Shown here: piece by piece, positions 31,401 to 60,453 of the stretch
How positions within the stretch are numbered: position 1 is the stretch's first letter
How the letters are laid out: every line of letters starts with the position of its first letter
From: an uncultured Prevotellaceae bacterium
GTDB lineage: Bacteria > Bacteroidota > Bacteroidia > Bacteroidales > Bacteroidaceae
Direction: 5' to 3'
Assembly (NCBI GenBank): GCA_947166305.1
Contig: CAMVDV010000005.1
Location: forward strand, 39,210 to 103,209
DNA: 64,000 nt
Position numbers and translations under genes: made by a program
Notes under the pieces: model-generated
What the model was told of the DNA's origin: nothing
The model's input: the letters and a program-made list of their open reading frames with translations, nothing else
The model's database searches: none

Positions 31401-34400
31401 ACGATTATGGTGTAGCCGTGAAGCCTGTGTTCCGAGGCAACGTCTATGCCGGCGGACGCGGCGTGGACCTCTATCAGCAGGAAGGCACCGACCGCTTCAG
31501 TCTGACGGCAGGTGCTGTCTATGGCAATGCCGAACTGAAGATGACGGGCGGCCACGTCTGGCACAATGTCTATGGTTCCGGCGCTATGGCATCGGTAGGT
31601 ACCGTCGAGGCCAAGCCTGCGGGCGTTCATGTCCACGACGAGATAGTTGACGACGGCGGCAACATCGTCAACCCCGACGGCAGCGACGTGAACTACCTGA
31701 CCGGCGTCTTCACGGAGAACACCGGCAAGGTGACCGTAACCATCACGGGCGGCACCGTGGGCGACACTACTCCCGGCCACGAAGGGCGCAACAATGGCCG
31801 CGTCTATGGTGCAGGTCGAGGCGTATCGGCAAGCCGAAGCGACCATGTGGCCAGCATGGAGTATGTGAACGACACTTATGTCAACATCGGCACCAGCGGG
31901 CAGCAGCCCTCCGACTACAGCGGCAGCGCACCTGGCGAACTGAACTATCCTTATATATATGGTGCCGTGTTTGGCGGAGGAGAGAACGGTCACGTCAAGT
32001 CCGACACCCACGTCAACATCTACAGCGGCATCATCGGCTGGCCTCTCGACGAGGGTGAAAGCCAACAGCACAAGACTTCGGCCGACGGCACATCGAAGAA
32101 TCCTCGCCGAGGCCACGTCTATGGCGGCGGACGCGGTGTGGATCCCCTCTATCACTCGTCGTCCGAGACCCGAAGCTCTACGGCCGGCCGTGTCTATGGC
32201 CACGCCTATGTCACGATGACGGGCGGTGTGGTTCGCCGAGCCATCTATGGTGGTGGCAACCTGGCCTCCGTGGGTATCTACAGACTGGCACAGTCCGACC
32301 TCCACATCGTCGACATGATAGAGGATGAAGAAGATTCTGGCGATGCCACCATCAATATCAGTGGCGGCATCATCGGCAACGTCAACCCCGACGGAACAGC
32401 CCTCAGCGGAACTTCCACCACTGGCCTTCCCTTCCTTGCCCCAGGCGACAACAACGGCCATGTCTTCGGTTCCGGCTGCGGCATGGTGGCCGACAACTAC
32501 ATAGAGGACGGCGTTGCCATCGACCAGCAGTATCGTCAGATGGGTTACTCGCACTCCACTCATGTCAACATCAGTGGCGGACAGCTCTATGGCAGCGTGT
32601 TTGGCTCCGGCGAGAACGGCCACGTCTGGGAAGACACCCGCATCAACATCACTGGCGGCACTATAGGTAGCGAGGAAAGCACGCTCATCTACTCCGGCAA
32701 CGTCTATGGTTCCGGCCGAGGTGTTGACCATCCGCACTTCCATGTCAGTGAGACAGCCGGCAAGGTGCGTGGCAACACGACGGTGAACATCACCGGCGGC
32801 ACCGTATGGCGCGACGTCTACGGCGGCGGCTCCCTGGCCTCCGTTGGTGAAGAAGGCGAGACGGGCGACGATTCCCATATCAACGTCACCGAGGACCCGC
32901 TGACCACCAATCCCTTCCCCTTCTCTTCGGGTCTGACGCGCGTCTACGTCAACGGCACTTCGGCCACCCCCGTCATCCACGGTTCCGTCTATGGCAGCGG
33001 GCGCGGCGTAGCCAGCAGCAACACCGAGTACAGGCAGGCCGCTTACGTCAAGAACACGCTCGTCACCGTCGGCAAGGCCCACGTCTTCCAGAACGTATTC
33101 GGCGGCGGCAATGCCGGCCACGTAAGGCGTAACACGACGGTGAGCATCCTGGACGGCGCCAAGGTGGACGGCAACGTCTACGGCGGCGGCGCGGGCAGCA
33201 TCAAGTCGCCCACGGCCGGCCTCGTGAACCACGACGTCACGGTGAACATCGAAGGCGGCCTCGTGGGAGGCGACGTCTACGGCGGCGGTGCCATCGCCAA
33301 CACCAACACCCACGACAAGCGCAACAACCCGAGCCTCTATGCCGACGGCACGACAGCCAAGGCCCGCACCTCCGTCTACGGCAATCCCTCCGAGGACGCC
33401 CTCTGCAAGACCGCAGTGAACCTGACCGGCGGCATCGTCCTCGGCAACGCCTACGGCGGCGGACAAGGTGTCATCCCCGAGGCCGGCGCCTCGGCCGCCG
33501 ACATCGCCAACGCCGGCGCCCTGGTGCGCGGCGACGTGACCGTCATCCTGAACGGCACAGCCTTCCATCCCACCACAACGACCGACGACCAGGGCAACAC
33601 CATCGCCGCCACCGGCCGCGTCTTTGGCTGCAATAACCTCAACGGCACGCCGCAGGGCACGGTGCTCGTGCATGTGCTCCGCACGAGAGGCGTCACGGAG
33701 AGCGGCGGCACATACACTGTCAACGATACCAAGCCGGAGAAGGGCACCGAGACCTACGAGGTGCAGGCCGTCTATGGCGGCGGCAACCTGGCAGCCTACG
33801 AGCCGTGGGTGGATACAGCCGACGGCCAGTACACCGCAAACTCCCACGTTGCCACTCAGCGACCCCTGCAGGTAGTCGTAGATGGCTGCGACGAGGCGAG
33901 CATCGAGTACGTCTATGGTGGCGGCAACGCTGCTGCCACTCCCAGCACCGACGTGCTCATGGTGGGCTGCTACGAGGTGGGCTACCTCTTCGGAGGCGGT
34001 AACGGTAAGGACCGCATCTACAAGAGTGAGACGTGGCAGGCCAATCCCGGTGCCGACGTAGGCTACACGGATGGCACCGTCAGCTACGGCACCGGCGAGG
34101 CCATCGTGGAGGCTTTGGGCGGCACGATAGGCAGCATCTTCGGCGGATCCAACACCAAGGGCAACGTCCGCCACTCTTCTGTGGCCTATCTCGACGAGGG
34201 GGGCGACTGCCCGCTGGATATCGACGAGGTCTATGGCGGCGGCAACGAGGCATTCATGGCTGGCAACTCTCAGGTGAAACTCGGTTGCATCACCCGTCTG
34301 AAGGCGCTCTACGGCGGCGCCAAGGCTGCTGATGTGGGTGGCGACATCAACCTGACTATCACGAGCGGACACTACGATCGCGTCTTTGGCGGCAACAATA

Positions 34401-34969
34401 TCAGTGGCGAAATCAGTGGCTCCATCACGGTGAACGTTGAGGAGACCGGCTGTCACCCCATCACCATCGGCGAGCTCTACGGCTGTGGCAACCAGGCAGC
34501 CTACACCACTCAGGCGGGCAAGGCCGACCCTGTCGTCAACGTGAAGTCGTTCACCAGCATCGGCCGCATCTTCGGCGGCGGACTGGGCGAGGGGGCTGTG
34601 GTGAAAGGCAACCCGACGGTCAACATCAACGAAGTGACCGGCCTGCGCTCCACCTATTCGCCCTGGGCATATCCCGGCACGACCATCACCTACAAAGACG
34701 GCACCAGTGTCACTCTGCCCACGCATGAGTCGGGCAAGATAGGCGCCATCGGTACCGTCTTCGGCGGCGGCAACGCGGCTAAGGTGGAGGGCAATACCAG
34801 CGTGAACGTCGGCACCGAAGAGAACGTCGTCTTCGTGACGCCCGAGACCGACAGCGAGGCCGACAGGACGAAGGCCGTGGAAGGTGTCAACATCCTGGGC
34901 AACGTCTTCGGCGGCGGCAACGAGGCCGAAGTCTCAGGCAAGTCCAATGTCGTGATAGGAAGAAAATAA
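22469..34969 (+). CDS. Giant VYGGG/VFGGG-repeat surface protein (4166 aa)
   Basis: A predicted exported giant repeat protein. The signal peptide ends TTFAAQAQ|TE near residue 29. Residues about 105-175 are GLUG-like (GGLVGLLRGTAHVVNCYSYA). Residues about 330-770 are non-repetitive. From about 775 to the end the protein is almost entirely glycine-rich modules: G(S/N)V(Y/F)GGGENGHV, a TxVxIxxGxIG strand, RGNVYGGGRGID, TAGKVxGNTxVNxTGG and VYGGGSLASVG. Nine ENGHV-type supermodules can be followed between about residues 1225 and 3560. A block of about 340 residues (from FGCNNxNGTPxG to NPTVNIN) occurs twice, near 1500-1860 and 3720-4060. It ends SNVVIGRK with no T9SS domain, unlike its neighbour. 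Predicted beta-helix or beta-solenoid adhesin; I do not recognise a named family. Confidence 0.72.
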   Translation: MQFNMFNRKVSKALLCLALLLTTFAAQAQTEITSLDQITNEDGNYKLTSDASGTPGVTTFRGTLEAAIDPTTKMPYRITGLDKPLFTTLTGTVKNLVLEDVNISGNTGNTGAIAATAEGAARIYNIGILSGSVGGTDNTGGLVGLLRGTAHVVNCYSYATITGGSNVGGIVGNNNTTTTAASIKTMVMNCMFYGDITGGSTVSPVFGGTNIANLNNGGLNTFNYYAYDELKTKAISNNKYNSALAVEQKFLNRFEFYRLLLNSNKKLAAFYATGNVADGGQMLKWVLETADRTIDNPKPYPILKAQGKYPSIINPDIEHAPDSATVGRNHGGKLSNKSGGTKTLSVTISGVGSNAPSGASITQGNLTLIRTDKDFDRFNFNYDKVQLPYYNDVGTGNCTGNRVVTGWKITAITAIDSDPYTAANYPTTGIKDFPDHNYADRRSSNKDLYSVSKRVFSQGAYFDVPYGVTSITIEPYWGKAYYIADQYYDVVYSANYQTKQGVSQTGTQVNTSSTLFNGQKVETSIERALNKITSELGGLGSTVYDNALVLVGNLHLNTVPQNGTTPFTMTSVDMDNDHEPDYSLIYHHTGRLSITPIRYDFLNIPGTAQAQKPNGASLICNFTIFKTRGWFETTNTALFYTSQLEYENLDNNTKTDAPLILLGGVVDQFVSTQSKAVTGKTIYIHVGGNVWIQEFGMGTHSDGSQSTPHVPVSVTGGEFPGFYLTGTYNANATIREDNAECYISGGYFHEVAGASQEGIKGNVHWQIYNADIDQFFGGGINEARPIQGTVTTDIYNSHVTLFCGGPKFGNMTTGKAVTTNAEGCTFGNFFGAGYGGNSYSRKKYYDKDGDQNWTTLQNYYVNDRGEYYNGTSTGSSQTSGKDYGKKGPGVATDFDYEFFVWSSGTTGARLFVKFVSFSLAQCDSVSSTLKKCTINENFYGGGSLGKVSGTARSELEDCTVMGNAFGAGYSATLPTIPVRNGGFTTDPNYNKNSGMFEPGIYTGTTEYTWEQVANYPAEGGAGFDGTQVITTQNLDKTNLGSVGNVQLTIKGTTEVKGSVYGGGEESIVTGNTVVNIEGGTIGTGGLGGADFGNVYGGGKGMKNDVKAGWVQGNTTVNISSLPDNNKTKVLHNVYGGGAFGSVGTFTYAADSTITGYTSGGQATLNILSGTFGTDGHDNGMIFGSSRGQEGNPLTDTNIDKLAWVYNTVVNVGTAGSATGPMVNGSVYGGGENGHNYQNAAVNIHSGTIGYTSYDPTSGYNCGSVFGAGCGTDKYTVGEVQHYNPLAGTVWGNTTIAIDGGHIRHNVYGGGAIGSAGKADGSNGKATITVTGGRVGTDGNDNGNIYGAPRGDSDATDADIAQVVDTEVNINYATTPTGDNTEHTAQLIAGSVFGGGQSGVVRHSVVVNMKGGLVLRDLYGGSALANTNIGNATNYGTSSEAISSTSTYTTTLNLHGGIVGHNVYGGGLGRKAATGVAPVAALVYGDVMVKLNETIATDNCRVKGNVFGCNNYNGTPKGIPTVHVYKTVGYDESHKKSTDKDDTTYDVHAVYGGGNEAAYQPALSTSSTNVIIDGCDLTSIQYVYGGGNAAPAPATQVTVNSCYEIGSLFGGGNGYDDLEDGSPNPGADVGLINGSPYGSGDANTIIYGGTIHEAYGASNQKGSIRGSINLNVQEDGACPLNIDKMVGAGRNADIDGDVILVMGCMPDTKTALVFGGADNANVNGNVELTITSGTFGQVFGGNNLGGIIKGHLKVNIEETGCRPIKIDELYLGGNEAAYSVFGYYDSGETDTFDRPIYLPRVSADDANAAIANPAADANHSFPYAQPVLNVISCTSIGKVFGGGLGTGAAMYANPTVNINMIPGKYANLLPDDENNPNRLGAVENVYGGGNEAAVHGNTTVNVGTTIGQEITLASTGATANVLGAYITGTVYGAGKGIASDPDAAIVTGNTQVNLGGGHVLRSIYGGGELGSVGTFTEKWDANQFDSDKKAWHFKDEPKACKEGTGLAEVIITGGQVGLNGQLMPDPTKPTADDDFGYVFCASKGIADSLTYEKANLLAVVGNTHLEVSGGLIIASVYGGSENGEVLTDTHVEIKGGQIGTGHYKEGEEDRWDGIYEEDAWTAAIAKVKDGTFTDADAEGFHLCDAWPFGPEGDRHVYDHYAGTEGYDAKGGASPGSDGHSYFGHVFGGGSGYYPFAAGMWRRTAGRVCGNTKVDITGGHILTNVYGGNEITDVLGTSRVEMTGGTVGVPRTLADIQGRPVNCNLFGAGMGDPRVLFNGWSNVASTEVIVRGEAVVFGSVFGGGEDGHVWGNASTTIEGNAVVGTFGSSGVDGNVFGSGRGFSGIALTAGVVCGNVEVNINGKAKVYGSVFGGGRMAAVGTYLAADDNENYGAMQSGADHGNVTVNITGGTIGNLTKMNDNEFSTGDVFGGSKGVLLDEWAKSQKLGLVKNTTVNISQADAASPTTIYGNVYGGGEIASVGYYKYATAEEAASYNATHTFEERSVGDVYALLDENAGTATINITGGTIGQNSTTDTHGLVFGGCLGRSGKDYSGYSFVNKSFVTLDGGTVYGCVFGGGENGHVFNDTDVEIKSGTVGIPLDKEHIADAALVDNLIYRGNVYGGGRGIDLTPGGDYSITAGKVAGNTVVNVTGGIIYRNVYGGGSLASVGDPNETADTDGNFSTGLATVNITGGQIGTDGAASANDYTSTSTTPIREHRRENGFVFGSGRGMAAGSVGNKTLVDMAYVKNTLVTIAGEANVTGSVFGGGENGHVRKDTKVYVKENCFIGTELNDAEHEIDDNGRGRLLYRGNAYGGGRGIDHMVDDPSQYSLTAGRVEGNTFIEVSGGKIYHDVFGGGSLASVGKATVNNVTGEVTYEGDTGNSEVHIKGGIIGYSSDADKQGFNCGFVYGGCRGLAVAPYDDAVKMAYVHNARVYIEPGADVKGSVFGGGANGHVKGNTYVEITGGSVGTALQSEEVGFDDYGVAVKPVFRGNVYAGGRGVDLYQQEGTDRFSLTAGAVYGNAELKMTGGHVWHNVYGSGAMASVGTVEAKPAGVHVHDEIVDDGGNIVNPDGSDVNYLTGVFTENTGKVTVTITGGTVGDTTPGHEGRNNGRVYGAGRGVSASRSDHVASMEYVNDTYVNIGTSGQQPSDYSGSAPGELNYPYIYGAVFGGGENGHVKSDTHVNIYSGIIGWPLDEGESQQHKTSADGTSKNPRRGHVYGGGRGVDPLYHSSSETRSSTAGRVYGHAYVTMTGGVVRRAIYGGGNLASVGIYRLAQSDLHIVDMIEDEEDSGDATINISGGIIGNVNPDGTALSGTSTTGLPFLAPGDNNGHVFGSGCGMVADNYIEDGVAIDQQYRQMGYSHSTHVNISGGQLYGSVFGSGENGHVWEDTRINITGGTIGSEESTLIYSGNVYGSGRGVDHPHFHVSETAGKVRGNTTVNITGGTVWRDVYGGGSLASVGEEGETGDDSHINVTEDPLTTNPFPFSSGLTRVYVNGTSATPVIHGSVYGSGRGVASSNTEYRQAAYVKNTLVTVGKAHVFQNVFGGGNAGHVRRNTTVSILDGAKVDGNVYGGGAGSIKSPTAGLVNHDVTVNIEGGLVGGDVYGGGAIANTNTHDKRNNPSLYADGTTAKARTSVYGNPSEDALCKTAVNLTGGIVLGNAYGGGQGVIPEAGASAADIANAGALVRGDVTVILNGTAFHPTTTTDDQGNTIAATGRVFGCNNLNGTPQGTVLVHVLRTRGVTESGGTYTVNDTKPEKGTETYEVQAVYGGGNLAAYEPWVDTADGQYTANSHVATQRPLQVVVDGCDEASIEYVYGGGNAAATPSTDVLMVGCYEVGYLFGGGNGKDRIYKSETWQANPGADVGYTDGTVSYGTGEAIVEALGGTIGSIFGGSNTKGNVRHSSVAYLDEGGDCPLDIDEVYGGGNEAFMAGNSQVKLGCITRLKALYGGAKAADVGGDINLTITSGHYDRVFGGNNISGEISGSITVNVEETGCHPITIGELYGCGNQAAYTTQAGKADPVVNVKSFTSIGRIFGGGLGEGAVVKGNPTVNINEVTGLRSTYSPWAYPGTTITYKDGTSVTLPTHESGKIGAIGTVFGGGNAAKVEGNTSVNVGTEENVVFVTPETDSEADRTKAVEGVNILGNVFGGGNEAEVSGKSNVVIGRK

Positions 34970-34993: not shown

Positions 34994-35081
34994 GTCGCAC
35001 GCGAAGTCGGTCGATTTCGCGTGCGACGATTCGTATCATCGCGTGCGACGATTGGCATCGCCGCACGCGACGTTTTTCAAC
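34994..35081 (+). repeat. 22-nt-period repeat array (four units)
   Basis: Starts 24 nt after the giant gene stop. Units end at 35015, 35037, 35059 and 35081 with linkers GTCGAT, CGTATC, GGCATC and TTCAAC. The word is GTCGCACGCG or its inverse. The first unit pairs with the second over 12-13 bp. Confidence 0.85.
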
Positions 35082-35209: not shown

Positions 35210-37528
35210 ATGAGCAAGCCGAGCAGATTCCTCATCTTCCTGTCCAAGAGGCGCGCGCTGCTGATAGTCATCGTGGCCGCCCTGCTCATCGAGCTGCTCT
35301 CCGCAGTGCAGTATGTCTTCACGCACCGGCTGCTGGAGGACGAACTGGAACGGCGTGCCGAGCTGGAGCTGACGCTCAAGGCCATCATCACCAAGGGACT
35401 TATTCAGGACTCGGAGCGCACCGTCAAGAGCCACATCAAGGAGGTGAAGAGCAACCTCTCGAATCCCGACTCGCTGGCCGGCATCGTGGCCTGGACTCTC
35501 AAGCACGCTCCCCACCTCGAGGGCTGCGGCATCGCTTTCAGCCCAGGCTATTACGGCGGACGCCACGAGCTCTTCGAGCCGTACGCCCTGCGCACCGACA
35601 GCGGCATCCTCAGCCTGGAACTGGCCGGAGAGGAGTTTGACTACACACGCTACGGCTTCTACAACGACATACGCAAGCGCAAGGAGAACAGCTGGGTGGG
35701 CCCTTACTACGACCACTACCTCCACGAGCAGATCGTATCCTACGCCGTGCCCATCTACGACGAGTCGGGCGACACCGTAGCCGTCTATGGCATCGACATC
35801 CACACCGGCGACCTGGGCGACACACTCAACTACCGGCACCTCTATCCCTCCTCCTTTGTCTTCCTCCTCACAGAGCATGGACAGCTTCTGGCAGGCCCTA
35901 AGGACCCGGAGCAGCAGCAGCGCGTGGAGCAGATGACCGCCCTCATGGGCGACAGCACCGTGGAGAAGCGGTGGAACCAGCGCGGCACGATGCGCATCAT
36001 CTCCCACTACGACCGCGAGGCCGACGACAATCTCACCCTCTTCTTCGCCAACATGCGCGGACAACCCCACTGGCAGGTGGCCGTCGTCTGCTACGACGAC
36101 GAGGTTTATGCCCCCCTCATCTGGCTTCGCCTGCGCCTTTTGCTGTTCTCCCTGCTTGCCTTCGGCATCCTCCTCTTCCTCATTAGCGCCTTCGCCCGCA
36201 GCGAACAGAAGCTCAGGCAACGCACCATGGAGCAGAATCGCATAGCGGGCGAGCTGCGCATCGCCGCCGACATACAGCAAGCCCTGTTGCCTGCCGAGGA
36301 ACCCTCCCTTCTGGGTCGCACCGATGTCAGCGTCGAGGGACGGCTCATCCCCGCCAAAGCCGTGGGAGGCGACCTTTACAATGCCTTCGTGCGCGACGGC
36401 AAACTCTTCTTCTGCATAGGCGACGTCAGCGGCAAGGGCGTGCCCGCCGCCCTCATCATGGCCATCGTTCAAGCCCTCTTCCGCACCATTGCGACGCGCG
36501 AGGACAACCCTGCCCACATCATGAGACACCTCAACGAGTCGGCATGTCAGGGCAACACCAAAAACTTCTTCGTCACGCTCTTCATCGGCGTCCTCGACCT
36601 TCCCACAGGTCACTTCCGCTATTGCAACGCAGGCCACGAGGTGCCACTCGTCATTGACCATTCACCATTGACCATTGACCTTTCTTCCCCGTTGAGCATT
36701 GATCATTCGCAGCAAGGCACAGCGGCAGGAGAATGTTCAATGTTCAATGTTCAATGTTCAATGGAAAAAGGTCAGTGTTCAATGTTAGACTGTTTGCCTA
36801 ACCTCCCCATCGGCATCCTCGACGACTTCGACTACCAGATGCAGTCGATGACGATGAAGCCAGGTTCGGCACTCTTCCTCTACACCGATGGCCTCACCGA
36901 AGCCCGCAACGAAGAGAACAAACTGCTGGGCAGGGAAGCGGTGTTGCAGATGGTCAGCAAATTCAACACCTCTGAGCCGAAAGAGCTCGTCGCGAAGGCC
37001 ATCCAGGCATGGCACGCCTTCGTTGGCTCCACGGAGCAAAGCGATGACCTCACGCTCCTGGCAGTACGTTATACTCCTATGCACGCCCAAGAACTGTTCA
37101 GCGAAGCGCTCACGCTCGGGAACGATGTGCAGGAAGTGGAAGCCCTGGGAGCGTTCGTCAAAGGCATTGCCGCCAAACTCTCGCTCGAAAGGTCGCTGGC
37201 CTCCAAGCTTCGCCTCGCCGTGGAGGAAGCCGTGGTGAACGTTATGGAGTATGCCTACCCGAAGGGAACCACAGGACAAGTGGACATTCGCGCCACCTCC
37301 GACGGCCAAAGGCTACGCTTTGTCATCACAGACAACGGCATCCCTTTCAATCCGACCGAAGTCTCTCAAGCCGACACAACGCTCTCCGCCGAGGAACGAC
37401 CCGTGGGAGGGCTTGGCATACTGCTCGTCAGGCAGCTCATGGATAGCATCAATTACGAGCGCATCGGCACGCAGAACGTGCTGACTTTGCAAAAGACGCT
37501 CCCCAAAACGGTCAATCCCACGAAGTGA
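35210..37528 (+). CDS. Membrane sensor-SpoIIE phosphatase fused to RsbW-like kinase domain
   Basis: A 772-aa partner-switching regulator. TM1 lies at about residues 14-34. A periplasmic Cache-like sensor spans about 40-300 (SWVGPYYDHYLHEQIVSYAVP, VAVYGIDIHTGDL), followed by TM2 at about 303-328. The PP2C/SpoIIE domain spans about 345-620 with GGDLYNAF, IGDVSGKGVPAAL, LYTDGLTEARN and SDDLTLLAVRY, so its metal ligands look intact. A C-terminal HATPase_c_2 (RsbW-like) covers about 625-765, with EEAVVNVMEYAYP as N box and VGGLGILLVRQLMD. One protein thus carries both kinase and phosphatase for a STAS antagonist, which is encoded 34 bp downstream. Residues about 483-525 are translated from tandem ATTGACC/GTTCAAT 7-mers inserted in the phosphatase domain. 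Confidence 0.88.
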   Translation: MSKPSRFLIFLSKRRALLIVIVAALLIELLSAVQYVFTHRLLEDELERRAELELTLKAIITKGLIQDSERTVKSHIKEVKSNLSNPDSLAGIVAWTLKHAPHLEGCGIAFSPGYYGGRHELFEPYALRTDSGILSLELAGEEFDYTRYGFYNDIRKRKENSWVGPYYDHYLHEQIVSYAVPIYDESGDTVAVYGIDIHTGDLGDTLNYRHLYPSSFVFLLTEHGQLLAGPKDPEQQQRVEQMTALMGDSTVEKRWNQRGTMRIISHYDREADDNLTLFFANMRGQPHWQVAVVCYDDEVYAPLIWLRLRLLLFSLLAFGILLFLISAFARSEQKLRQRTMEQNRIAGELRIAADIQQALLPAEEPSLLGRTDVSVEGRLIPAKAVGGDLYNAFVRDGKLFFCIGDVSGKGVPAALIMAIVQALFRTIATREDNPAHIMRHLNESACQGNTKNFFVTLFIGVLDLPTGHFRYCNAGHEVPLVIDHSPLTIDLSSPLSIDHSQQGTAAGECSMFNVQCSMEKGQCSMLDCLPNLPIGILDDFDYQMQSMTMKPGSALFLYTDGLTEARNEENKLLGREAVLQMVSKFNTSEPKELVAKAIQAWHAFVGSTEQSDDLTLLAVRYTPMHAQELFSEALTLGNDVQEVEALGAFVKGIAAKLSLERSLASKLRLAVEEAVVNVMEYAYPKGTTGQVDIRATSDGQRLRFVITDNGIPFNPTEVSQADTTLSAEERPVGGLGILLVRQLMDSINYERIGTQNVLTLQKTLPKTVNPTK
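36649..36790 (+). repeat. 7-nt-period repeats inside the phosphatase gene
   Basis: Left side: ATTGACC, ATTCACC, ATTGACC, ATTGACC in tandem. Right side: GTTCAAT four times, then GGTCAGTGTTCAATG. The two sides are inverted relative to each other around a unique spacer. The reading frame stays open, adding roughly 45 residues that do not belong to the PP2C fold. Confidence 0.8.
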
Positions 37529-39225: not shown

Positions 39226-39313
39226 TCCGCCTGCGGGGATGTCCATCGCAGCACGCGACGACAGCCATCGCCGCACGCGGAGATGCCCGTCGCCGCACGC
39301 GGAGATTTCTGAC
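39226..39313 (+). repeat. 22-nt-period repeat array (four units)
   Basis: Units end at 39247, 39269, 39291 and 39313 with linkers GTCCATC, AGCCATC, GCCCGTC and TCTGAC. The word is GCCGCACGCG. The array ends are inverted copies of each other: AGATTTCCGC on the left, GCGGAGATTTCT on the right. Confidence 0.85.
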
Positions 39314-39381: not shown

Positions 39382-42300
39382 ATGACGACTCCTTTAAGCA
39401 AGACGCAGTACGGCATCTACGTAGAATGCGTCAAACACAGTGGCGAAATCTGCTACAATCTCCCATTTCTCTATACGTTCAGCAGAGACCTCGATGCAGA
39501 AAAGTTCTGCAAGGCCGTTGAGACGGCTGTGAAGGCACACCCGACGCTCTTCACCCGCATACGCCTCGACGACGAGGGCGAGCCGGTGCAAGTCATCGAA
39601 GCGGACGAGGACTTCAAGGTCTCCGTAGAAGACATCAGCGAAGACATCGCAGTGAAAAGAGAGTCGTTGATAAAGCCCTTCGACATCTACGCCGACCGCC
39701 TCTTCCGCATCCACGTGCTTCGCGATGCCAGTCACCTCTATCTCTTCGTCGATTATCACCACATCATCGTGGATGGTGGCTCGATAAAACTCATGATTTC
39801 TACCATCGACAAGGCATATCATGGTCTCGCGCCCGACGCCGAGGAACTGACACTTGCCGAGAAAACCATGGAAGAACAGGGCGTGCGGGAGACGGAAGCC
39901 TTCCGCGAGGCAAAGGAATGGTATGCCCGCAGCTTCGATTGTGGCGACGTTTACTCGCCGTTGATGCCCGATGTGGACAACGGCCAGACACCGGTTCCAG
40001 GGCAAGAGACAGAGACGATGCGCGTCAGGGCACTCCATACGGACAAGGGGCGCGTGGAAGCCTTCTGCCGGGAAAACGGCATCTTCAAGAGCACCCTGTT
40101 CACTGCGGCTTACGCTTTCCTGCTCGCCAAGTACAACAATGAGCAGGAATCGCTCTTCACGACGGCCTATAGCGGCAGGCAAGACAAGCGACTCAAGCAT
40201 ACGGTCGGTATGTTCGTCAAGACCATTCCTTCCTACTACAAGTTCAGCGCAGACACCTCCGTGCTCGACTTTCTCCGTGCCGGCCAGGAGCAAATGTCAG
40301 GATGCCGTCAGCACGAAGCCTACGCCTTCAGCGACGTGATGACCGACCTCGGCCTGCAGTTGGCTACGACGTTTGCCTGGCACGGCGAAACCATCAACAA
40401 CGATGCCTTCGACGGCAAGACAGTGACGGCACCGGTCCTTGTGAACAACACGCGCGATGTACCCATCTATCTCAAGGCTTACATCGTGGGGCAGCAATGT
40501 TTCATCGATGCAGAATACAACACCACACAGTATTCTGAGGCATTCATCCAGCAACTTTTGGAGAGCTACGAAGCTGTGGTGGAAGGATTCCTTGCCAAGG
40601 AATACCTGCGCGACATCAGCATCATCAGTCCCGAACAAGTTCGGTTGCTCGACACCTTCAACAACACAGACCAGCCTTACGATGAAAGTCAGACAATAGT
40701 CTCACTGTTCCGACGTCAGGCACAAAGTGCACCCGACAAGACTGCCGTCGTCTTCCGCGAGAATCGGTACACCTACAAGGAGGTGGACGAACTGAGCGAC
40801 CGCATTGCCGGCTTTATCATCGAAAAGGGATTGGGTGCCGAAGATGTCGTGGCGATACTCATTCCTCGGTGCGAATGGATGGCGATAGCATCCCTCGGCG
40901 TACTGAAAGCCGACTGTGCTTTCCAGCCGCTCGATCCAAGTTACCCTAAGGACAGGCTGAACTTCATGGTGCAGGACACCAAAGCTCGCTTGCTGATAGC
41001 AGACGAAGCCCTGCTGCCGATAATGGACGAGTACAAGGGAGAAATCCTTCTGACCAAGGACCTGAAGAGCCTGAAGGACTCGAAAAGCACCAGAGACCCG
41101 AGGCCCGACAGCCTCTTTACCTTAATATACACCAGCGGCTCGACCGGCGTGCCCAAGGGAGGCATGTCCGAGCATCGCAATTGGGTAGCGTTTTGCCACA
41201 TGCATCAACAAGGGCTACACATCGACGCCCAGAGCCGTGTGGCAGCATACGCAAGCTTTGGCTTCGATGCCTCACCCATGGAAATCTTCTCCGCGCTGAC
41301 TATTGGAGCAGAACTCTACATCATCCCCGAGGAGCTGCGACTCGACCTGATTGCCCTGAGCGACTACTTCGAGGCAAATGGCATCACGCATACTTTCATG
41401 ACCACGCAGGTGGCCTATCAGTTTGCCACCAGCATAGAGAACCACTCCCTGCAAGTGCTGATGACGGGCGGCGAGAAGCTGCCTTCCCTGACACCGCCCG
41501 CGACATTCAGCCTCACCAATGGCTATGGTCCGTCGGAAACAATATGTTATGTCACCAATTATTGGGTGAAGGAACAGAAGAAGAACATCCCTATTGGAAA
41601 GGCCGTGCAGAACTGCAAACTCTATATCGTGGACAAGGAAGGCTTCCGCTTGCCTGCAGGAGCCTGCGGCGAGTTGTGGGTGGCTGGTCCGCAAGTGACG
41701 CGTGGCTATCTGAACCGCCCCGAAAAGACGGCCGAGGTGTATATCAGCAACCCGTTTACTGATGAGCCTAAGTACAACCGCATCTATAAGACTGGCGACA
41801 TCGTGCGCTACTTGCCCGACGGCAACATCGAGTTTGTGGGAAGAAGAGACGGACAAGTCAAGATCCGTGGCTTCCGAATTGAGTTGAAGGAGGTGGAATC
41901 TGTCATCCGCGAGTTCCCTGGCATCAAGGATGCTACGGTGCAGGCATTCGACATGGAAGGCGAAGGCTCCGGCAAGTACATTGCTGCTTACATTGTCAGC
42001 GACGAGAAGATTGACATCGACGCACTCAACAACTTCATTCTCGAAGAGAAGCCGCCCTACATGGTGCCTGCTGTCACGATGCAAATCGACGCCATTCCTC
42101 TCAATCAGAACCAGAAGGTCAATAAACGTGCGCTGCCCAAACCGGAGAAGAAGGCAGAGGCTGTCGAGGCAGTCAGCGCACCAATGAATGTGCTCGAGCA
42201 GGAGTTGTTCGACTTGATAGCAGGCATTGTGAACAACAAGGAGTTCGGCATTACAACTATCCTTGGCTATGCCGGGCTCACATCCATCTCAGCTATCAGG

Positions 42301-45300
42301 CTCGCGGTGCTCATCAGCAAGCGTTACGGCGTTGCCATTGATGCCAAATCGCTCGTCAAGACAGGCACTTTGCAAGGCATCGAGAACGAAATCCTAAAGA
42401 GCTTGATGCAACCGGGGGCTGTCCATTCGCCACAAGAAACGCCCGCACAGCCTGCTCAGGAACTGCAAAAAGTTCCGCTCTCCTACGCTCAGATGGGTGT
42501 TTATGTGGACTGCATGAAGAATCCCACCTCTACCATATATAATATCCCGCTGAAGATTGCCTTCCCGCCCTCTGTCGATGTGCAGGAACTCAAGGCGGCA
42601 TTGACAACTTTTGTGAAGGCTCATCCGGAGCTTAGCATACACTTCGAGACGGAAAACACAGAGATAACTCAGGTTCAGGACTTGGGACAAACCGTCAACA
42701 TCGCGTTGAGCGAGATGACAGAGGAAGCGCTGTCGGGCTACAAACTGGAGTTCGTGAAGCCCTTCAACCTGAGTAAAGGACCGCTATACCGGCTGGAGAT
42801 TGTGAAGACACCGCAGAAGGTCTATCTGCTCTCCGACTTCCATCACCTCGTGTTTGACGGAGGTTCCTACGATCTCTTCCTCCATCAGTTGTGCGACCTG
42901 ATGAACGGTGGCGAGATTGAGGCAGAGGACATGAGCTATGCGGCCTTCGTCGTCAGGGAGAAAGAGGCAGAGAAGGGTGCGGAATATGCTGCCGCCCGCG
43001 ATTTCTTCCAGAGCCAACTTGGTGCCGTCGAAGGGCCGACTGTGATTCAACCCGACTTGACTAATCCGCACGACCAAGGCATCATCGGGGTGACCTCTTC
43101 TGCAATCGACATCGAAGCCATCAGCGAATTCTGTCGAAAGCACCAGATAACACCGGCTCACCTCACTTTGTCTGCCGTTTTCTACGCGCTGTCGCGCTTC
43201 TCCAACAACGAGCGTCTTTGCATCACCACCATCAGCAACGGTCGTAGCAACCTGAGAATCCAAGGCACGATAGGCATGTTTGTCAACACACTTGCCCTCA
43301 GTGCCAATATCGGAACGCAGAGTGTGATGGAGTTCATCAAGGAGACGAGCGAGGACTTCGACACAACATTGACCCACGAGAACTATCCTTTTGCTCAAAT
43401 CGCATCCGACTTCGACCTGACTGCCGAGATAATGTTTGCCTATCAGATTGGGGTGTTCAGCGACTACCAGTGCCAAGGTGTACCGTTGGAAATAGAAAAT
43501 CTCGAGCTAAACGTGCCGAAGTTTAGCATAGCCTTCTACATAAGGGAGTACAATGGCAGGGATTGTGTGTATATAGAGTACGACGATGGTCGGTATAGCC
43601 AAAGCCTGATGCAAAGTTTGGCCGATGCGGTCAGTGCGGCCGTCGTTGCCTTTATGCGTCAGCCCGATGCACCTTTGCTGAGCGTGTCGTTGCTCAATGA
43701 CAAGCAGAAGGCACTGCTCGACAGCTTCAACCAAACGGATGTTGACTACGATGCCTCGCAGACTATCGTTTCTCTCTTTGCCGAGCAAGCCAAACGTGTG
43801 CCGGACAACATTGCCGTTGTCTATAAGGATATACATTATACATATAAGGAAGTGGACGAGATAAGCGACCGTATTGCTGGCTTCATCGCTTCGAAGGGAC
43901 TGAAGGCAGAGGACGTCGTGTCTGTGCTCATCCCGCGTTGCGAATGGATGGCGCTTGCCTCGCTTGGCGTGCTGAAGGCCGGTTGTGCCTATCAGCCGCT
44001 TGACCCAAGCTATCCGAAGGAGCGGCTGAACTTCATGATGCAGGACGCCGATGCCAAACTGCTGATTGCAGACGAGACGTTGCGGGACATCGTGGACGAA
44101 TACAAAGGCGACGTCTTGCTGACGAAGGACATACCAAATCTGCCGAGTTCTCAGGGGATTCCTGCCACTTCGATTGCTCCTTCTTCTCTTTTCATCCTTC
44201 TCTACACCTCGGGCTCCACTGGCGTTCCGAAGGGATGCCAGTTGACGCACGGCAATCTCGTGGCCTTCTGTCATTGGTATCAGCGTTACTATGAGCTTAC
44301 TTCCGAGAGCCGTGTGGCTGCATACGCCAGCTATGGCTTCGATGCTTGCATGATGGATATGTATCCAGCCTTGACGTGTGGCGCATCGGTCTACATCATA
44401 GGTGAAGACATTCGCTTGAATCTGCCCGATTTGAACGAGTACTTCAACGCCAACGGCATCACGCATTCGTTCATCACGACGCAGGTGGGCTACCAGTTTG
44501 CCACGAATGTCGACAACCATTCGCTGCGCCATTTCTCCGTCGGGGGCGAGAAACTTTCCGCGCTCAACCCGCCAAAGAACTATCAGATGCACAATGGATA
44601 TGGTCCCACGGAGTGCACCATCTTCACGACCACCTACCCGCTGAAGGACTATGAGGCCGACATTCCTATCGGCAAGCCGCTCGACAACATCCGTCTCTAC
44701 ATTGTCGATCCGCAGTTCCACCGTTTGCCTCTTGGTGCCGCCGGCGAGCTTTGGGTGTCGGGCCCACAGGTGGGAAGGGGCTATCTGAACAGGCCGGAGA
44801 AGACAGCGGAGAGCTTCATCAGGAATCCCTTCACGTCGGAAGAGAAATACAGCCGCGTCTATCGCACCGGCGACATTGTGCGTTACTTGCCGGACGGCAA
44901 GGTGCAGTTCGTGGGACGGCGCGACGGACAGGTGAAGATCCGCGGCTTCCGCATCGAACTGAAAGAGGTGGAGGCGGTCATTCGGCAGTTCCCGGGCATC
45001 AAGGACGCCACCGTCCAGGCCTTTGATTACGAGAATGGAGGCAAGTTTATTGCTGCCTATGTCGTGAGCGACGAGCAGGTGGACGTCAAGGCCCTCAGCC
45101 AGTTCATCCTCTCGCAGAAGCCCCCGTACATGGTTCCGGCAGCCACGATGCAGATTGATGCCATTCCGCTGAACCAAAACCAGAAGGTGAACCGCAAGGC
45201 TTTGCCGGCGCCTGTCATCCAGACCAGCGACCGCGAATACGTGGAACCCAAGGGCGAGCAGGAACGTTTGTTTGCCAAAATCTTCGGGGACGTGCTGCAG

Positions 45301-46701
45301 TTGGACAAGGTGGGGGCAACGGATAACTTCTTCGACCTTGGCGGCACGTCGTTGATGGTGACGCGGGTCATCATCGAATGCGACAAGGCGGGACTCCATG
45401 TGGCCTACGGCGACATCTTTGCCAACCCGACGCCCCGGCTCCTGGCGCGCTTCGTGTCGGGTGACACGGCGGAGGAGAACTTCGACGAGATAACGGGATT
45501 CGACTACACGCCCATCAACAACCTGCTGCAAGGGAACACCGTCGAGGCCTTCAAGCGCGGCGAGCGTCAGGAGTTGGGGTGCGTCCTGCTGACAGGCGCC
45601 ACAGGCTATCTGGGCATCCATGTGCTGAGGGAACTGATTGATTCCGAAGCCACCAGCATCTATTGCCTTGTGCGTGGCGAGACGCAGGAGAAGGCCGAAA
45701 GCCGTCTGCGCACGTTGCTCTTCTACTACTTCGACGATGCCTTCAAGGAACTCTTCGGCAGGAGATTGCACGTCATCCTGGGCGACGTCACCGAAGACCT
45801 CACGGCAAAACTCCAGATGCCCAATGGTCAATCCTCAATGGTCAATGATAAAATCTCCACAGTTATCAACTGTGCAGCTAACGTGAAGCACTTCTCGAAG
45901 GGCACCGACATTGAGGACGTGAACATCGGAGGCGCGCGGCGGTGCGTGGAATTCTGCCTGAAGACGGGCGCACGCCTGGTCCATGTCTCCACCACCAGCG
46001 TGGGGGGAACCTCCATCAACGGTTATCCGGCAGCCGACGTCCTGCTCAATGAGCAGCGACTCTACTTTGGACAGTACCTGGGCAACCAGTACATCTACTC
46101 CAAGTTTATGGCCGACCGCATCATCCTCGACGCCGTGGCCCGGCACGGACTCAATGCCAAAGTCATGCGCGTGGGCAACCTTGCAGCCCGAAGCACCGAT
46201 GGTGAGTTCCAGGTAAACTTCCAGTCTAACAGCTACATGGGGCGCATACGCGTCTATAACATGCTGGGCTGTTGCCCATTCTCCCACTATGATGCGCTCG
46301 CCGAGTTCTCCCCCATCAACGAGACAGCCCGTGCCATCGTGCTGCTGTCGGCCACGCCGAAGGAGTGCGTCGTGTTCCATCCCTACAACAACCACGTCGA
46401 GCTCATGGGCGACATCCTCACCCAGCTGGCCGGCATCACGGGCGGCATCCGATTTGTCGACCCCCAGGAGTTCGACGACGCGATGGAACAGGCCAAGAAC
46501 GACCCGCAGAAGGCCAAGGCACTCTCCAGTATGCTTGCCTACAAAGACTTGGCTCACGGACAGAAGTCGGCGATGGTGGACCGCCAGAACAACTACACTT
46601 CCGAGGTTCTCCACCGCCTGGGCTTCTACTGGAGCACCACGTCGCAGGACTACATCGAGCGGATGCTGACCGCCATCGCGGGCTTCGGTTTCTTCGAGTG
46701 A
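39382..46701 (+). CDS. Dimodular nonribosomal peptide synthetase, C-A-T-C-A-T-R
   Basis: A 2439-aa NRPS. C1 is about 1-430 (HHIIVDG at about 125). A1 is about 442-915 (YTSGSTGVPKGG, NGYGPSET, YKTGDIVRYLPDG). T1 is about 938-1006 with serine in AGLTSIS, lacking the usual GGxS. C2 is about 1033-1440 (HHLVFDG). A2 is about 1463-1940. T2 is about 1952-2030 (DLGGTSLM). A terminal thioester reductase is about 2065-2439 (LLTGATGYLGIHVL, YIYSK as YxxxK). Reductive release should give a dipeptide aldehyde that can cyclise to a pyrazinone-type product. By alignment to GrsA the specificity residues read approximately DAMFMGGCY (A1) and DAMFSGGIF (A2); I cannot assign amino acids from these. The leading C domain suggests N-acylation or a truncated upstream module. 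No phosphopantetheinyl transferase or MbtH gene is nearby. Confidence 0.9.
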   Translation: MTTPLSKTQYGIYVECVKHSGEICYNLPFLYTFSRDLDAEKFCKAVETAVKAHPTLFTRIRLDDEGEPVQVIEADEDFKVSVEDISEDIAVKRESLIKPFDIYADRLFRIHVLRDASHLYLFVDYHHIIVDGGSIKLMISTIDKAYHGLAPDAEELTLAEKTMEEQGVRETEAFREAKEWYARSFDCGDVYSPLMPDVDNGQTPVPGQETETMRVRALHTDKGRVEAFCRENGIFKSTLFTAAYAFLLAKYNNEQESLFTTAYSGRQDKRLKHTVGMFVKTIPSYYKFSADTSVLDFLRAGQEQMSGCRQHEAYAFSDVMTDLGLQLATTFAWHGETINNDAFDGKTVTAPVLVNNTRDVPIYLKAYIVGQQCFIDAEYNTTQYSEAFIQQLLESYEAVVEGFLAKEYLRDISIISPEQVRLLDTFNNTDQPYDESQTIVSLFRRQAQSAPDKTAVVFRENRYTYKEVDELSDRIAGFIIEKGLGAEDVVAILIPRCEWMAIASLGVLKADCAFQPLDPSYPKDRLNFMVQDTKARLLIADEALLPIMDEYKGEILLTKDLKSLKDSKSTRDPRPDSLFTLIYTSGSTGVPKGGMSEHRNWVAFCHMHQQGLHIDAQSRVAAYASFGFDASPMEIFSALTIGAELYIIPEELRLDLIALSDYFEANGITHTFMTTQVAYQFATSIENHSLQVLMTGGEKLPSLTPPATFSLTNGYGPSETICYVTNYWVKEQKKNIPIGKAVQNCKLYIVDKEGFRLPAGACGELWVAGPQVTRGYLNRPEKTAEVYISNPFTDEPKYNRIYKTGDIVRYLPDGNIEFVGRRDGQVKIRGFRIELKEVESVIREFPGIKDATVQAFDMEGEGSGKYIAAYIVSDEKIDIDALNNFILEEKPPYMVPAVTMQIDAIPLNQNQKVNKRALPKPEKKAEAVEAVSAPMNVLEQELFDLIAGIVNNKEFGITTILGYAGLTSISAIRLAVLISKRYGVAIDAKSLVKTGTLQGIENEILKSLMQPGAVHSPQETPAQPAQELQKVPLSYAQMGVYVDCMKNPTSTIYNIPLKIAFPPSVDVQELKAALTTFVKAHPELSIHFETENTEITQVQDLGQTVNIALSEMTEEALSGYKLEFVKPFNLSKGPLYRLEIVKTPQKVYLLSDFHHLVFDGGSYDLFLHQLCDLMNGGEIEAEDMSYAAFVVREKEAEKGAEYAAARDFFQSQLGAVEGPTVIQPDLTNPHDQGIIGVTSSAIDIEAISEFCRKHQITPAHLTLSAVFYALSRFSNNERLCITTISNGRSNLRIQGTIGMFVNTLALSANIGTQSVMEFIKETSEDFDTTLTHENYPFAQIASDFDLTAEIMFAYQIGVFSDYQCQGVPLEIENLELNVPKFSIAFYIREYNGRDCVYIEYDDGRYSQSLMQSLADAVSAAVVAFMRQPDAPLLSVSLLNDKQKALLDSFNQTDVDYDASQTIVSLFAEQAKRVPDNIAVVYKDIHYTYKEVDEISDRIAGFIASKGLKAEDVVSVLIPRCEWMALASLGVLKAGCAYQPLDPSYPKERLNFMMQDADAKLLIADETLRDIVDEYKGDVLLTKDIPNLPSSQGIPATSIAPSSLFILLYTSGSTGVPKGCQLTHGNLVAFCHWYQRYYELTSESRVAAYASYGFDACMMDMYPALTCGASVYIIGEDIRLNLPDLNEYFNANGITHSFITTQVGYQFATNVDNHSLRHFSVGGEKLSALNPPKNYQMHNGYGPTECTIFTTTYPLKDYEADIPIGKPLDNIRLYIVDPQFHRLPLGAAGELWVSGPQVGRGYLNRPEKTAESFIRNPFTSEEKYSRVYRTGDIVRYLPDGKVQFVGRRDGQVKIRGFRIELKEVEAVIRQFPGIKDATVQAFDYENGGKFIAAYVVSDEQVDVKALSQFILSQKPPYMVPAATMQIDAIPLNQNQKVNRKALPAPVIQTSDREYVEPKGEQERLFAKIFGDVLQLDKVGATDNFFDLGGTSLMVTRVIIECDKAGLHVAYGDIFANPTPRLLARFVSGDTAEENFDEITGFDYTPINNLLQGNTVEAFKRGERQELGCVLLTGATGYLGIHVLRELIDSEATSIYCLVRGETQEKAESRLRTLLFYYFDDAFKELFGRRLHVILGDVTEDLTAKLQMPNGQSSMVNDKISTVINCAANVKHFSKGTDIEDVNIGGARRCVEFCLKTGARLVHVSTTSVGGTSINGYPAADVLLNEQRLYFGQYLGNQYIYSKFMADRIILDAVARHGLNAKVMRVGNLAARSTDGEFQVNFQSNSYMGRIRVYNMLGCCPFSHYDALAEFSPINETARAIVLLSATPKECVVFHPYNNHVELMGDILTQLAGITGGIRFVDPQEFDDAMEQAKNDPQKAKALSSMLAYKDLAHGQKSAMVDRQNNYTSEVLHRLGFYWSTTSQDYIERMLTAIAGFGFFE
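45828..45852 (+). repeat. Short 7-nt-period repeat inside the NRPS reductase domain
   Basis: AATGGTC, AATCCTC, AATGGTC, AATGATA in tandem. It encodes NGQSSMVND between the Rossmann strand ending DVTEDLTAKLQM and the next strand STVINCAANV, where reductase domains normally have a short loop. Confidence 0.7.
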
Positions 46702-46718: not shown

Positions 46719-46806
46719 GCCGCGTGCGACGATGTCCATCGCCGCACGCGATGATGCCCGTCGCCGCACGCGACGTTGGACATCGTCGCACGCGAAGTTT
46801 CCGGGC
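46719..46806 (+). repeat. 22-nt-period repeat array (four units) between convergent genes
   Basis: Begins 17 nt after the NRPS stop and ends 30 nt before the stop of the convergent receptor gene. Units end at 46740, 46762, 46784 and 46806 with linkers GTCCATC, GCCCGTC, GGACATC and CCGGGC. The outer ends CCGGAAAC and GTTTCCGG are inverted copies, so the whole array can fold back on itself. Confidence 0.88.
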
Positions 46807-50689: not shown

Positions 50690-51228
50690 AGGCTTCTCGG
50701 GTTAAACTGTTTCTTGATGGACGCGATGATGTGCGAGAGGTGTTTCCACACGGCCACCTTGCTGATGCCCTCGGCCAGGGCTATCTCCTCGTAGCTGCAT
50801 CCTTCCCGGAAGCGCAGGCCGAAGATGCGCCTGTCCTGCTCCGAGAGATGGCTCGCCACGTACTCCACGATGTCGTCCAGCCTGTCGTCCGACGAACATT
50901 GACCATTGACCATTGACCATTGACCATTGTGTATTGGATCTTCGCCATTATTGGCTGTGCCATTTGCCGCTGCGAAATGGTCAATGGTCAATGATGAATG
51001 TTCAATGGCCTCATGCCTGAGTCGCTTCAGACAGCGGTTCCTGACGCTCGTCATCAGGTAGGCTTCCTCCGTCTCCGGCACGAGAACCGTCTCGCCACGG
51101 AGCAGGCTCTCGAAGATGTCCACACAGACATCCTCGCTCTCCTGAGCATCCAGAAGCAGCGTACGCGCCACCCTGTGCATCCGGGCATAGTGCTGCATGA
51201 ACAGCTGCCTAACGGTCTCTCTTTCCAT
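50686..51228 (-). CDS. ECF-type RNA polymerase sigma-70 factor
   Basis: About 180 aa. Region 2 is at about 10-60 (HYARMHRVARTLLLDAQESEDVCVDIFESLL). Region 4 is at about 125-175 (LSEQDRRIFGLRFREGCSYEEIALAEGISKVAVWKHLSHI), a complete helix-turn-helix. The ORF track starts at a TTG (51255); I prefer the ATG at 51228, giving MERETVRQLFM. The linker between regions 2 and 4 is lengthened by about 40 residues (SSLTIDHFAAANGTANN...NGQWSMVNGQCSSDD) that are translated from 7-nt tandem repeats. It is followed by its anti-sigma gene with an ATGA overlap. In this family it switches on its own operon when the receptor is loaded. Confidence 0.88.
   Translation of the reverse strand: MERETVRQLFMQHYARMHRVARTLLLDAQESEDVCVDIFESLLRGETVLVPETEEAYLMTSVRNRCLKRLRHEAIEHSSLTIDHFAAANGTANNGEDPIHNGQWSMVNGQCSSDDRLDDIVEYVASHLSEQDRRIFGLRFREGCSYEEIALAEGISKVAVWKHLSHIIASIKKQFNPRSL
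50893..51007. repeat. 7-nt-period inverted repeats inside the sigma-factor gene
   Basis: Left: four tandem ATTGACC units and a partial one (from about 50897). Right: AATGGTC twice, then AATGATG, AATGTTC, AATGGC (from about 50978). The two blocks are inverted copies around a spacer. The reading frame is kept, adding the long region 2-region 4 linker. Confidence 0.82.
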
Positions 51229-51386: not shown

Positions 51387-51474
51387 CAGGGATACTTCGT
51401 TGCTTCATCATGATGAAGCAATTGCTTGTACATGATGAAGCAATTGCTTATACATGATGCAGCAATCAACTATG
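51387..51474 (+). repeat. 22-nt-period repeat array (four units)
   Basis: Units end at 51408, 51430, 51452 and 51474. Unit two is CATGATGAAGCAATTGCTT plus GTA; unit three differs only at one or two bases. The first unit carries the word inverted (TTGCTTCAT). Here the word fills most of the unit and the GCCAAC linker is absent, so this is the most divergent array. Confidence 0.8.
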
Positions 51475-51559: not shown

Positions 51560-52279
51560 CTATTCTGCTCCGAGGCCTTTGGCTATCTCCCTCCAGAGAG
51601 GTTCTTCGGGCAGCGGCGCCTCGATGGTAATGGGCAGATGTGAGACGGGGTGCTCCAGTTCGAGCCTCCAGGCATGGAGCGAGATGCTGCCGTCAGGGTT
51701 GCTGCGAGGCGCACCATACTTCAGGTCGCCCCGGATGGGACAGCCTATCTTGGCGAGCTGGCAGCGTATCTGATGATGACGGCCTGTCTGCAGCTCCACT
51801 TCGAGGAGAAAGTAACGCTCCGACGCAGCGACGAGCCGGTAGTGCAGCACGGCCTTCTTGCTGCCGGGCACTTCGCGGTCGTAGGCTCGGGCCATGTTCT
51901 TCTGCTCGTTGCGCGTGAGCCAGTGGGTGAGCGTGCCTTCCGTTTCGGGCGGACGGCGCGCGACGATGGCGAGATAGGTCTTGCGCACGCCCTTGTGCTC
52001 AGCAAACATCTTGTTGAGCCTGGGCAGGGCTTTGCTCGTCTTGGCAAAGAGTACGACGCCACTGACAGGCCGGTCGAGCCGATGGACCACGCCGAGCCAG
52101 GCTTCACCCGGTTTGCTGTACTTCTCGCGGAGAAAGGTTTTCACCATATCGCACAAGGGGACATCGCCGGTCTTGTCGCCCTGCACGATGTCCCCTGCTC
52201 GCTTCGAGACTGCTATGAGGTGGTTGTCCTCGTAGATGATTTCACGATTTGACAATTTCACAATTTCACAATGTGACAA
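51560..52279 (-). CDS. RluA-family RNA pseudouridine synthase
   Basis: About 235 aa; converts specific uridines in rRNA or tRNA to pseudouridine. The catalytic aspartate is in VVHRLDRPVSGVVLFAKT, the invariant RLD motif of the RluA group. Further family blocks are YEDNHLIAVSKRAGDIVQGD at the N-terminus, LEVELQTGRHHQIRCQLA and CPIRGDLKYGAP, and ISLHAWRLELEHP near the end. There is no S4 domain. The start is odd: no ATG precedes the conserved block, and the only in-frame starts (TTG 52279, GTG 52261, TTG 52255) lie inside an 8-nt-period ATTTCACA repeat. The true start is therefore uncertain. It is third in a minus-strand run behind TetR and FabG. Confidence 0.88.
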   Translation of the reverse strand: MSHCEIVKLSNREIIYEDNHLIAVSKRAGDIVQGDKTGDVPLCDMVKTFLREKYSKPGEAWLGVVHRLDRPVSGVVLFAKTSKALPRLNKMFAEHKGVRKTYLAIVARRPPETEGTLTHWLTRNEQKNMARAYDREVPGSKKAVLHYRLVAASERYFLLEVELQTGRHHQIRCQLAKIGCPIRGDLKYGAPRSNPDGSISLHAWRLELEHPVSHLPITIEAPLPEEPLWREIAKGLGAE

Positions 52280-52384
52280 TCCTAATCAATTTACGATTTG
52301 ACGATTTACTATTTACGATTTATTTTCGATATGACGATATAACGATATAACGTTTTAACGACAGAACGTTTTAACTTTTTAACA
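52241..52384. repeat. 8-nt-period repeats between fabG and the pseudouridine synthase
   Basis: Two adjoining arrays. The first has ATTTCACG, ATTTGACA, ATTTCACA, ATTTCACA, ATGTGACA, then less regular ATTTACG words. The second runs ATATAACG, ATATAACG, TTTTAACG, ACAGAACG, TTTTAACT at exact 8-nt steps from 52337 and continues into the fabG stop codon. Both gene ends are thus built from repeat sequence. Confidence 0.8.
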
Positions 52385-53141: not shown

Positions 53142-53189
53142 ATTTGACAAATTTACGATTTTACGATTATACGATTTGACAATTTCACA
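53142..53189. repeat. 8-nt-period repeat array upstream of fabG
   Basis: Six units at exact 8-nt steps: ATTTGACA, AATTTACG, ATTTTACG, ATTATACG, ATTTGACA, ATTTCACA. It begins 5 bp from the fabG start codon, so it forms most of the fabG leader. Confidence 0.85.
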
Positions 53190-53219
53190 ATTTTTGGCAG
53201 GGGCGGCAGCAAATTATTC

Positions 53220-54270: not shown

Positions 54271-54362
54271 TGAAAACGCCCCGTGGAGCGTTGGCCATCG
54301 CCCCACGGGGAAATTGCCAACGCTCCACGGGGCGTTTGCCATCGCCGCACGCGGCGTTTTCA
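54271..54362 (+). repeat. 22-nt-period repeat array with a 22-bp perfect inverted repeat
   Basis: Between the tRNA terminator and the convergent GH3 stop. Units have words GCCCCGTGGAGCG, GCCCCACGGGG, GCTCCACGGGGCG and GCCGCACGCGGCG with linkers GGCCATC, GCCAAC, GCCATC and CAGTC. 54274-54295 and 54316-54337 are exact reverse complements. The outer ends TGAAAACGCC/GGCGTTTTCA are also inverted copies. Confidence 0.88.
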
Positions 54363-58906: not shown

Positions 58907-58946
58907 ACATCACGTTATAACGTCATAACGTTATCACGAAAAAACG
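58907..58946. repeat. 8-nt-period repeat array (five units)
   Basis: ACATCACG, TTATAACG, TCATAACG, TTATCACG, AAAAAACG at exact 8-nt steps, between the barrel gene stop and the oxidoreductase start. Same period and AACG ending as the array beside fabG. Confidence 0.82.
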
Positions 58947-60365: not shown

Positions 60366-60453
60366 CGACACGTTTACTTCGCCAAATAAACGTGTTTAGT
60401 TGCCCAACTAAACGTGTTAACAACGCAAACTAAACGTGTTTAGCAGTGCCCCA
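60366..60453 (+). repeat. 22-nt-period array with AAACGTGTTTA word
   Basis: Units end at 60387, 60409, 60431 and 60453. The word AAACGTGTTTA starts three units; the first unit has it inverted (ACACGTTTA). Linkers are GCCAAAT, GCCCAACT, CGCAAACT and TGCCCCA. It runs directly into a REP-like palindrome. Confidence 0.85.

Follow-up and report, generated by a model that had tools for sequence, protein, structure and literature searches.

The array at 46719–46806 of the window (the whole 64-kb stretch of DNA analysed here) consists of four units of 22 nt and lies between two convergent genes, an NRPS gene and an OMP gene; the symmetry of the array is extended by its flanks CCGGAAAC/GTTTCCGG. A two-module non-ribosomal peptide synthetase with a terminal reductase domain is encoded at 39382–46701. 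Arrays with a 22-nt period had been listed at nine places of the window in an earlier note on this DNA, and the period was borne out at all nine coordinates, none of the arrays being assigned a strand. Five of the nine carry the same word, CCGCGTGCGGCGATnGCnATCn (family A): besides 46719–46806, these are 22175–22284 (five units, 20 nt past the stop codon of a 3665-aa ORF), 34994–35081 (four units, 24 nt past the stop codon of a 4166-aa ORF), 39226–39313 (four units, 20 nt past the stop codon of a porin-like gene), and 54271–54362 (four units, between the 3′ end of a GH3 gene and a convergent tRNA-Met gene). The distance of 17–25 nt after a stop codon that the note had given for four arrays is right by our own gene calls. 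The two giant ORFs of 3665 and 4166 aa are adjacent (11157–22154 and 22469–34969).

The remaining arrays belong to other word families. The one at 8574–8661 has four units of family D (CTTCACCGTTATnGGCAGAACC) and lies in a co-directional gap (8470/8780), while that at 51387–51474 has about three units of family C, whose CATG and GCAATTGC dyads are spaced 11 nt, and amounts to a single long inverted repeat. What had been taken for a single array at 60126–60316 is actually two arrays of two families, namely 60126–60250 with a family B-like word (TCCTCATGAG) and, directly abutting it, 60251–60316 of family E (ACTAACGAGTAATTGGCGATTT). The array at 60366–60453 is of the same family as the one at 60126 (family B, AACTAAAC-AC-GTTTAGTT followed by GGCA) and adjoins a GTAG-tagged REP. 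Repeats of a different kind were seen within coding sequence at 36652–36786 and 50897–51008, where a CATTGAC heptamer array is followed about 50 nt further on by an AATGTTC/AATGGTC heptamer array; the genes concerned are that of a SpoIIE-type phosphatase and one directly upstream of a FecR gene.

Period, spacing and word families

Repeat clusters in the window numbered 11 at lag 22, 8 at lag 44 (twice 22), and 0–5 at the other lags between 8 and 60, and the shuffled window gave about none. A census of 864 kb of the same genome (29% of 2.94 Mb; 71 contigs; genome 84% complete), in which our own gene calling by a simple codon model gave 596 genes, recovered 156 lag-22 arrays, 150 intergenic and 6 other, mostly of 3–5 units, compared with 16 arrays at lag 21 and 4 at lag 23. 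The enrichment over shuffled sequence for which the earlier note had proposed a scan of the intergenic DNA was thus found, and scaling by length we infer roughly 500 arrays per whole genome. The highest unrelated lag in the 864 kb was 16, with 42 arrays (38 intergenic). This second strongest intergenic lag of the genome may be compared with the period-8 intergenic arrays of the TTTACGAT and TAACGTTT types found in the window at 52239–52383, 53142–53194, and 58908–58946.

Each locus had been thought to possess its own word, which proved wrong: the 864 kb contain about seven word families common to 5–68 loci each, together with a few small families and singletons. Family A (CCGCGTGCGGCGATnGCnATCn) is present at 68 loci, family B (ACACGTTTAGTTTGCCAACTAA) at 24, family C (ATGATGCaGCAATTGCtTgnTC) at 16, and families D, E, F, and G at 13, 10, 8, and 5 loci, respectively. 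In families A, B, and C the units are nearly palindromic and a dyad axis recurs every 11 bp (as in the AACTAAAC-AC-GTTTAGTT unit with its GGCA); the centre of A and B units is almost invariably AC or GT, a dinucleotide without self-complementarity. The pattern of the main superfamily (I) is TNGCNAA between CACG spaced every 22 nt. Two details of the earlier description needed correction: a GCCA(A/T)C linker is present in one superfamily and is not shared by all arrays, and in the main family inverted terminal units occur in a minority, most arrays having all their cores in the same orientation. The words are nearly confined to arrays and single units are few, with CGCCGCACGCG occurring 74 times within arrays, 9 times elsewhere in intergenic DNA, and 8 times in coding sequence.

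For the spacing test, single cores were scanned without an assumed period. At the stricter threshold, all 168 family A core spacings of 20–24 nt and 83 of the 85 in family B were exactly 22 nt. Neighbouring units of family A are 70% identical (about 6.6 differences per unit), and neutral bacterial DNA with so many substitutions is expected to hold many indels. The spacing is kept far more strictly than the sequence, and therefore something maintains the period, which supports the generating or maintaining mechanism that had been suggested; the constant period with changing sequence held both within the genome and between species. Within an array, units tend to deviate in the same way (0.41 vs. 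0.20 expected by chance), and so the arrays grow or homogenise locally by whole units.

Gene gaps and relatives

The share of gene gaps occupied by arrays depended on gap type among gaps of 100–200 bp (convergent 50%, co-directional 19%, divergent 0%), and among gaps > 300 bp it was 58–71% whatever the type (18 of 29 for divergent gaps). This occupancy fits an avoidance of promoter space with filling of the remainder and shows no restriction to 3′ ends; much the same distribution would be expected if free intergenic space were used neutrally. In gut and rumen-type Bacteroidales of one group, an array is found in about half of the longer gaps; the species keep it, with its spacing, at that place and exchange its sequence, a pattern suggestive of a chromosome-wide protein-binding system not described before. 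Replacement of terminators by arrays was also considered and rejected, as no association with intrinsic terminators was found.

Orthologous gaps were compared at three loci (recA, groES, and GH3/tRNA-Met) in genomes that are apparently draft or metagenome assemblies, one per species. Between recA and rny, the recA terminator and the end of rny are conserved in four species (G111, G008, G086, and G117) and an array lies between them, with four 22-nt units, or five in G086 after an insertion of about one unit; the units align internally without gaps, and the linker is kept while the word differs. Upstream of groES, an array precedes the conserved groESL promoter in 14 of 15 array-rich species (G045 included), often directly past the upstream stop codon, and in 1 of 16 other species, G123 having one further upstream. 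The words found there are the A word, TTTACTAGTGTGACGTTTGCGA, and TTAACGTGTTACGTTGGCGATT, as well as the unrelated AGTTTTCCCACGGTGGGACTCG, ATGGTTAACCATTnTGCCCATA, and ACGAGGTTTTGCTCCGAAGCTC, i.e., even the superfamily differs between species. In the GH3/tRNA-Met gap, the array at 54271–54362 of this genome (G000) with its A word corresponds to an array with its own word in G008, to one remnant unit in G024, and to nothing in G020. One further gap has an array in this genome and is precisely shorter, without array, in G045. Two readings remain for the change of word at a kept position, in-place rewriting or loss followed by re-gain at permissive spots. Arrays of the AGTTTTCCCACGG type upstream of groES (L327, L331, and L332) terminate in a long hairpin whose loop contains a T tract (AGTCCTCC...TTTTT..GGAGGACT), a terminal hairpin that was absent from the arrays of other superfamilies upstream of groES.

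Superfamily I was searched in relatives as CACG every 22 nt with TNGCNAA between, allowing up to 3 mismatches. Matches numbered 331 in this genome (3 with the reversed control) and 20–485 in each of about 30 among 139 congeneric species, most others having none or a handful; the reversed-pattern controls were close to 0. Among 294 other Bacteroidales, four had matches, with one or two each. On a recA tree of 30 species the array-rich label needs three changes, which is compatible with one gain and two losses. Array-poor congeners still contain a few lag-22 arrays, built from other words, and in 13 kb of a named Prevotella MAG (L141) there are six lag-22 clusters, likewise with other words. In one array-poor species (G113, contig L134), an array with an 11-nt period (AGCCTAGAAGC), exactly half of 22, was seen about 360–450 nt past recA.

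Possible readings: binding sites, mobile repeats or RNA elements

When a family A half-site deviates, neither its mirror half-site (0.153 vs. 0.155) nor the neighbouring unit (0.153 vs. 0.154) compensates, with slight compensation against each array's own consensus (0.105 vs. 0.064). Between families and species, the arms nevertheless change symmetrically (fraction of complementary mirror pairs 0.68 vs. 0.36 permuted; 0 of 5000 permutations as high), in a test of 23 words whose list was copied by hand and in which words of the same genome are not independent. If a dimeric DNA-binding protein changed its specificity, half-sites would be expected to vary independently within a family and the arms to change symmetrically between families, as observed here. 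We weighed several explanations, and the one we favour, at a probability of roughly 0.45 and judging from sequence, is that the arrays are tandem sites for one or more cooperatively binding dimeric DNA-binding proteins with fast-changing specificity, probably at the boundary between transcription units. Among the roles suggested in the earlier note, a protein-binding array with two-turn spacing fits best.

Each array would then offer 3–5 contiguous near-palindromic 22-bp sites, on which adjacent dimers, at a distance of two helical turns, would bind cooperatively to the same face of the DNA; cooperativity would fix the spacing, and the word would need only to match the current protein. The bound stack would act at the DNA level, independently of orientation and where gaps are free of promoters, and its most likely function would be that of a boundary element (a roadblock to read-through, a topological insulator, or a nucleoid anchor), and the words would drift symmetrically as the specificity of the protein changes, with array positions persisting. 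Spacing, symmetry, and half-site independence point to binding, the position of the arrays suggests the boundary function, and the protein, its cooperativity, and the co-evolution of word and protein are postulated. Expansions of ParB, HU, and HU-HIG were considered as the binding protein, and their counts fail to separate array-rich from array-poor species. More tentatively, the arrays might constitute a chromosome-wide, spacing-encoded boundary system, in which a protein family reads 22-bp-phased palindromic stacks at the boundaries of transcription units and hundreds of sites are rewritten together with the protein across species while positions and spacing are kept.

It is unlikely, in our estimation, that the arrays are instead selfish or non-autonomous mobile palindromes of REP/MITE type spreading into permissive gaps, a transposase or hairpin-processing enzyme needing the 22-nt unit and new families overwriting old ones. 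Such mobility would agree with the dispersal of one word over up to 68 loci, with flanks that some loci share beyond the array (86% over 211 bp), with the frequent abutment of family B arrays on the GTAG REP, with the gap that is occupied here and lacks the array in G045, and with the patchy distribution within the genus. However, array-end alignments of families A and B gave AAAAC-like edges only, with no conserved terminal motif beyond ~AAAAC at family A ends, few units stand singly, the spacing is exact despite old and divergent units, and viral contigs yielded no related match. Y1 transposases do not track the arrays either, as none were found in the array-rich G008, G052, and G024, and many array-poor species have them; a Y1/RAYT transposase as driver was rejected on this failure to separate the two groups. 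Phage carriage was likewise rejected, the sole pattern match in viral contigs (L292, 120–200) being an unrelated AT-rich contig in which a 22-nt unit (CCGTGACAACTTCGCTACCTAT) occurs four times in tandem.

The 3′-end formation or mRNA protection mentioned in the earlier note would place the element at the RNA level, with array transcripts folding into hairpins that form or protect mRNA 3′ ends, and as the main role this is improbable. The arrays can self-pair (mean best hairpin score 11.2 vs. 6.8 in Markov shuffles), several begin 17–25 nt past a stop codon, and convergent gaps are the most often occupied among those of 100–200 bp. Nevertheless, core orientation relative to transcription has no strand bias (40 vs. 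42), family A pairing partners do not covary, 21 arrays lie in divergent gaps, 18 of the 29 divergent gaps > 300 bp are occupied, the recA array comes after a conserved terminator, and intrinsic-terminator-like sites are about equally frequent with and without arrays, i.e., neither replaced nor enriched. Since strand bias is lacking and pairing partners in the main family covary hardly or not at all, the arrays are unlikely to serve as sense RNA or as terminators. In the window, no array matched Rfam above the gathering score, the only Rfam match being a tRNA. Hairpins may have a role in families C and B, since C is a long inverted repeat with strong compensation from end to end and B has some dyad covariation. 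Finally, a functionless by-product of replication slippage and quasi-palindrome template switching, which would create and homogenise tandem palindromes, accounts for the likeness of units within an array (the same-letter deviations above) and for arms turning symmetric together, but it predicts varied periods and many 1–2 nt shifts, of which almost none were seen, leaves both the words shared at unlinked loci and the same-gap retention across species unexplained, and, already weakened by the spacing test, is hardly credible.

Comparison with known repeats

No description of arrays with a 22-nt period, or defined by their period, was found in the open-access literature, and no described family matched, in keeping with the earlier statement that no named family is known to have these properties. 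REP/BIME elements are marked by a GTAG or CGTC tag (PMC3733652) and associated with RAYT transposases (PMC2817692). The arrays resemble them in being intergenic, palindromic, clustered, and present in high copy (the 150 intergenic arrays in 864 kb), with word families differing between species. They differ in that the GTAG/CGTC tag is absent from the aligned ends of families A and B, in the distribution of Y1 described above, and in their head-to-tail arrangement at an exact 22-nt period, the few singletons, and the replacement of words in the same gap between species. A separate, true GTAG-tagged REP (GTAGGGACGCGCCGTGGCGCGTCC) is present in about 50 copies in the 864 kb, often as inverted pairs and adjoining family B arrays (window sites 60454–60477, 1489, 1599, 1669 on the minus strand, and 60714); Y1 transposase matches in this genome are weak only, and GTAG repeats are unlisted for Bacteroidetes in PMC3733652.

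BrickBuilt elements (PMC4596501), minisatellites that in Porphyromonas gingivalis are enclosed in a MITE having a leader, a tail, and terminal inverted repeats, are likewise short intergenic tandem repeats in a Bacteroidales species. No MITE leader, tail, or terminal inverted repeats were seen in the arrays. The array ends of families A and B are not conserved; family C resembles a single inverted repeat. The TAACTGA heptamer direct repeats of Beggiatoaceae, Cyanobacteria, and some Bacteroidetes (PMC4679880) are similar as genome-wide intergenic short tandem repeats with patchy distribution and no assigned role. However, they have one fixed 7-nt word without dyad and often lie upstream of start codons, whereas in the arrays the word varies and the 22-nt period is fixed. 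In contrast to CRISPR, the whole unit measures 22 nt and the linkers are repeated rather than being unique spacers, and the strand-specific hairpin with U tract that characterises intrinsic terminators was not found.

Plasmid iterons and segregation (ParR) site arrays are tandem sites of ~20–22 bp that place proteins on one DNA face; they occupy one locus per replicon with one word, while the arrays fill hundreds of chromosomal gaps with several words. In eukaryotic satellite DNA the unit length is conserved and the sequence turns over, suggesting phased protein packing, but the arrays are very short and lie at fixed positions in bacterial gene gaps. If a protein maintains them, they would be a bacterial counterpart of satellites that evolve fast yet conserve their function, and would allow a direct test of the joint change of chromosome-wide sites and their protein. 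The arrays concern a large share of the intergenic DNA in an abundant, little-studied Bacteroidales group. Sequence is what defines the repeats and site arrays known from bacteria, whereas in these arrays the spacing and the position in the gap are conserved and the sequence is replaced, even at orthologous places.
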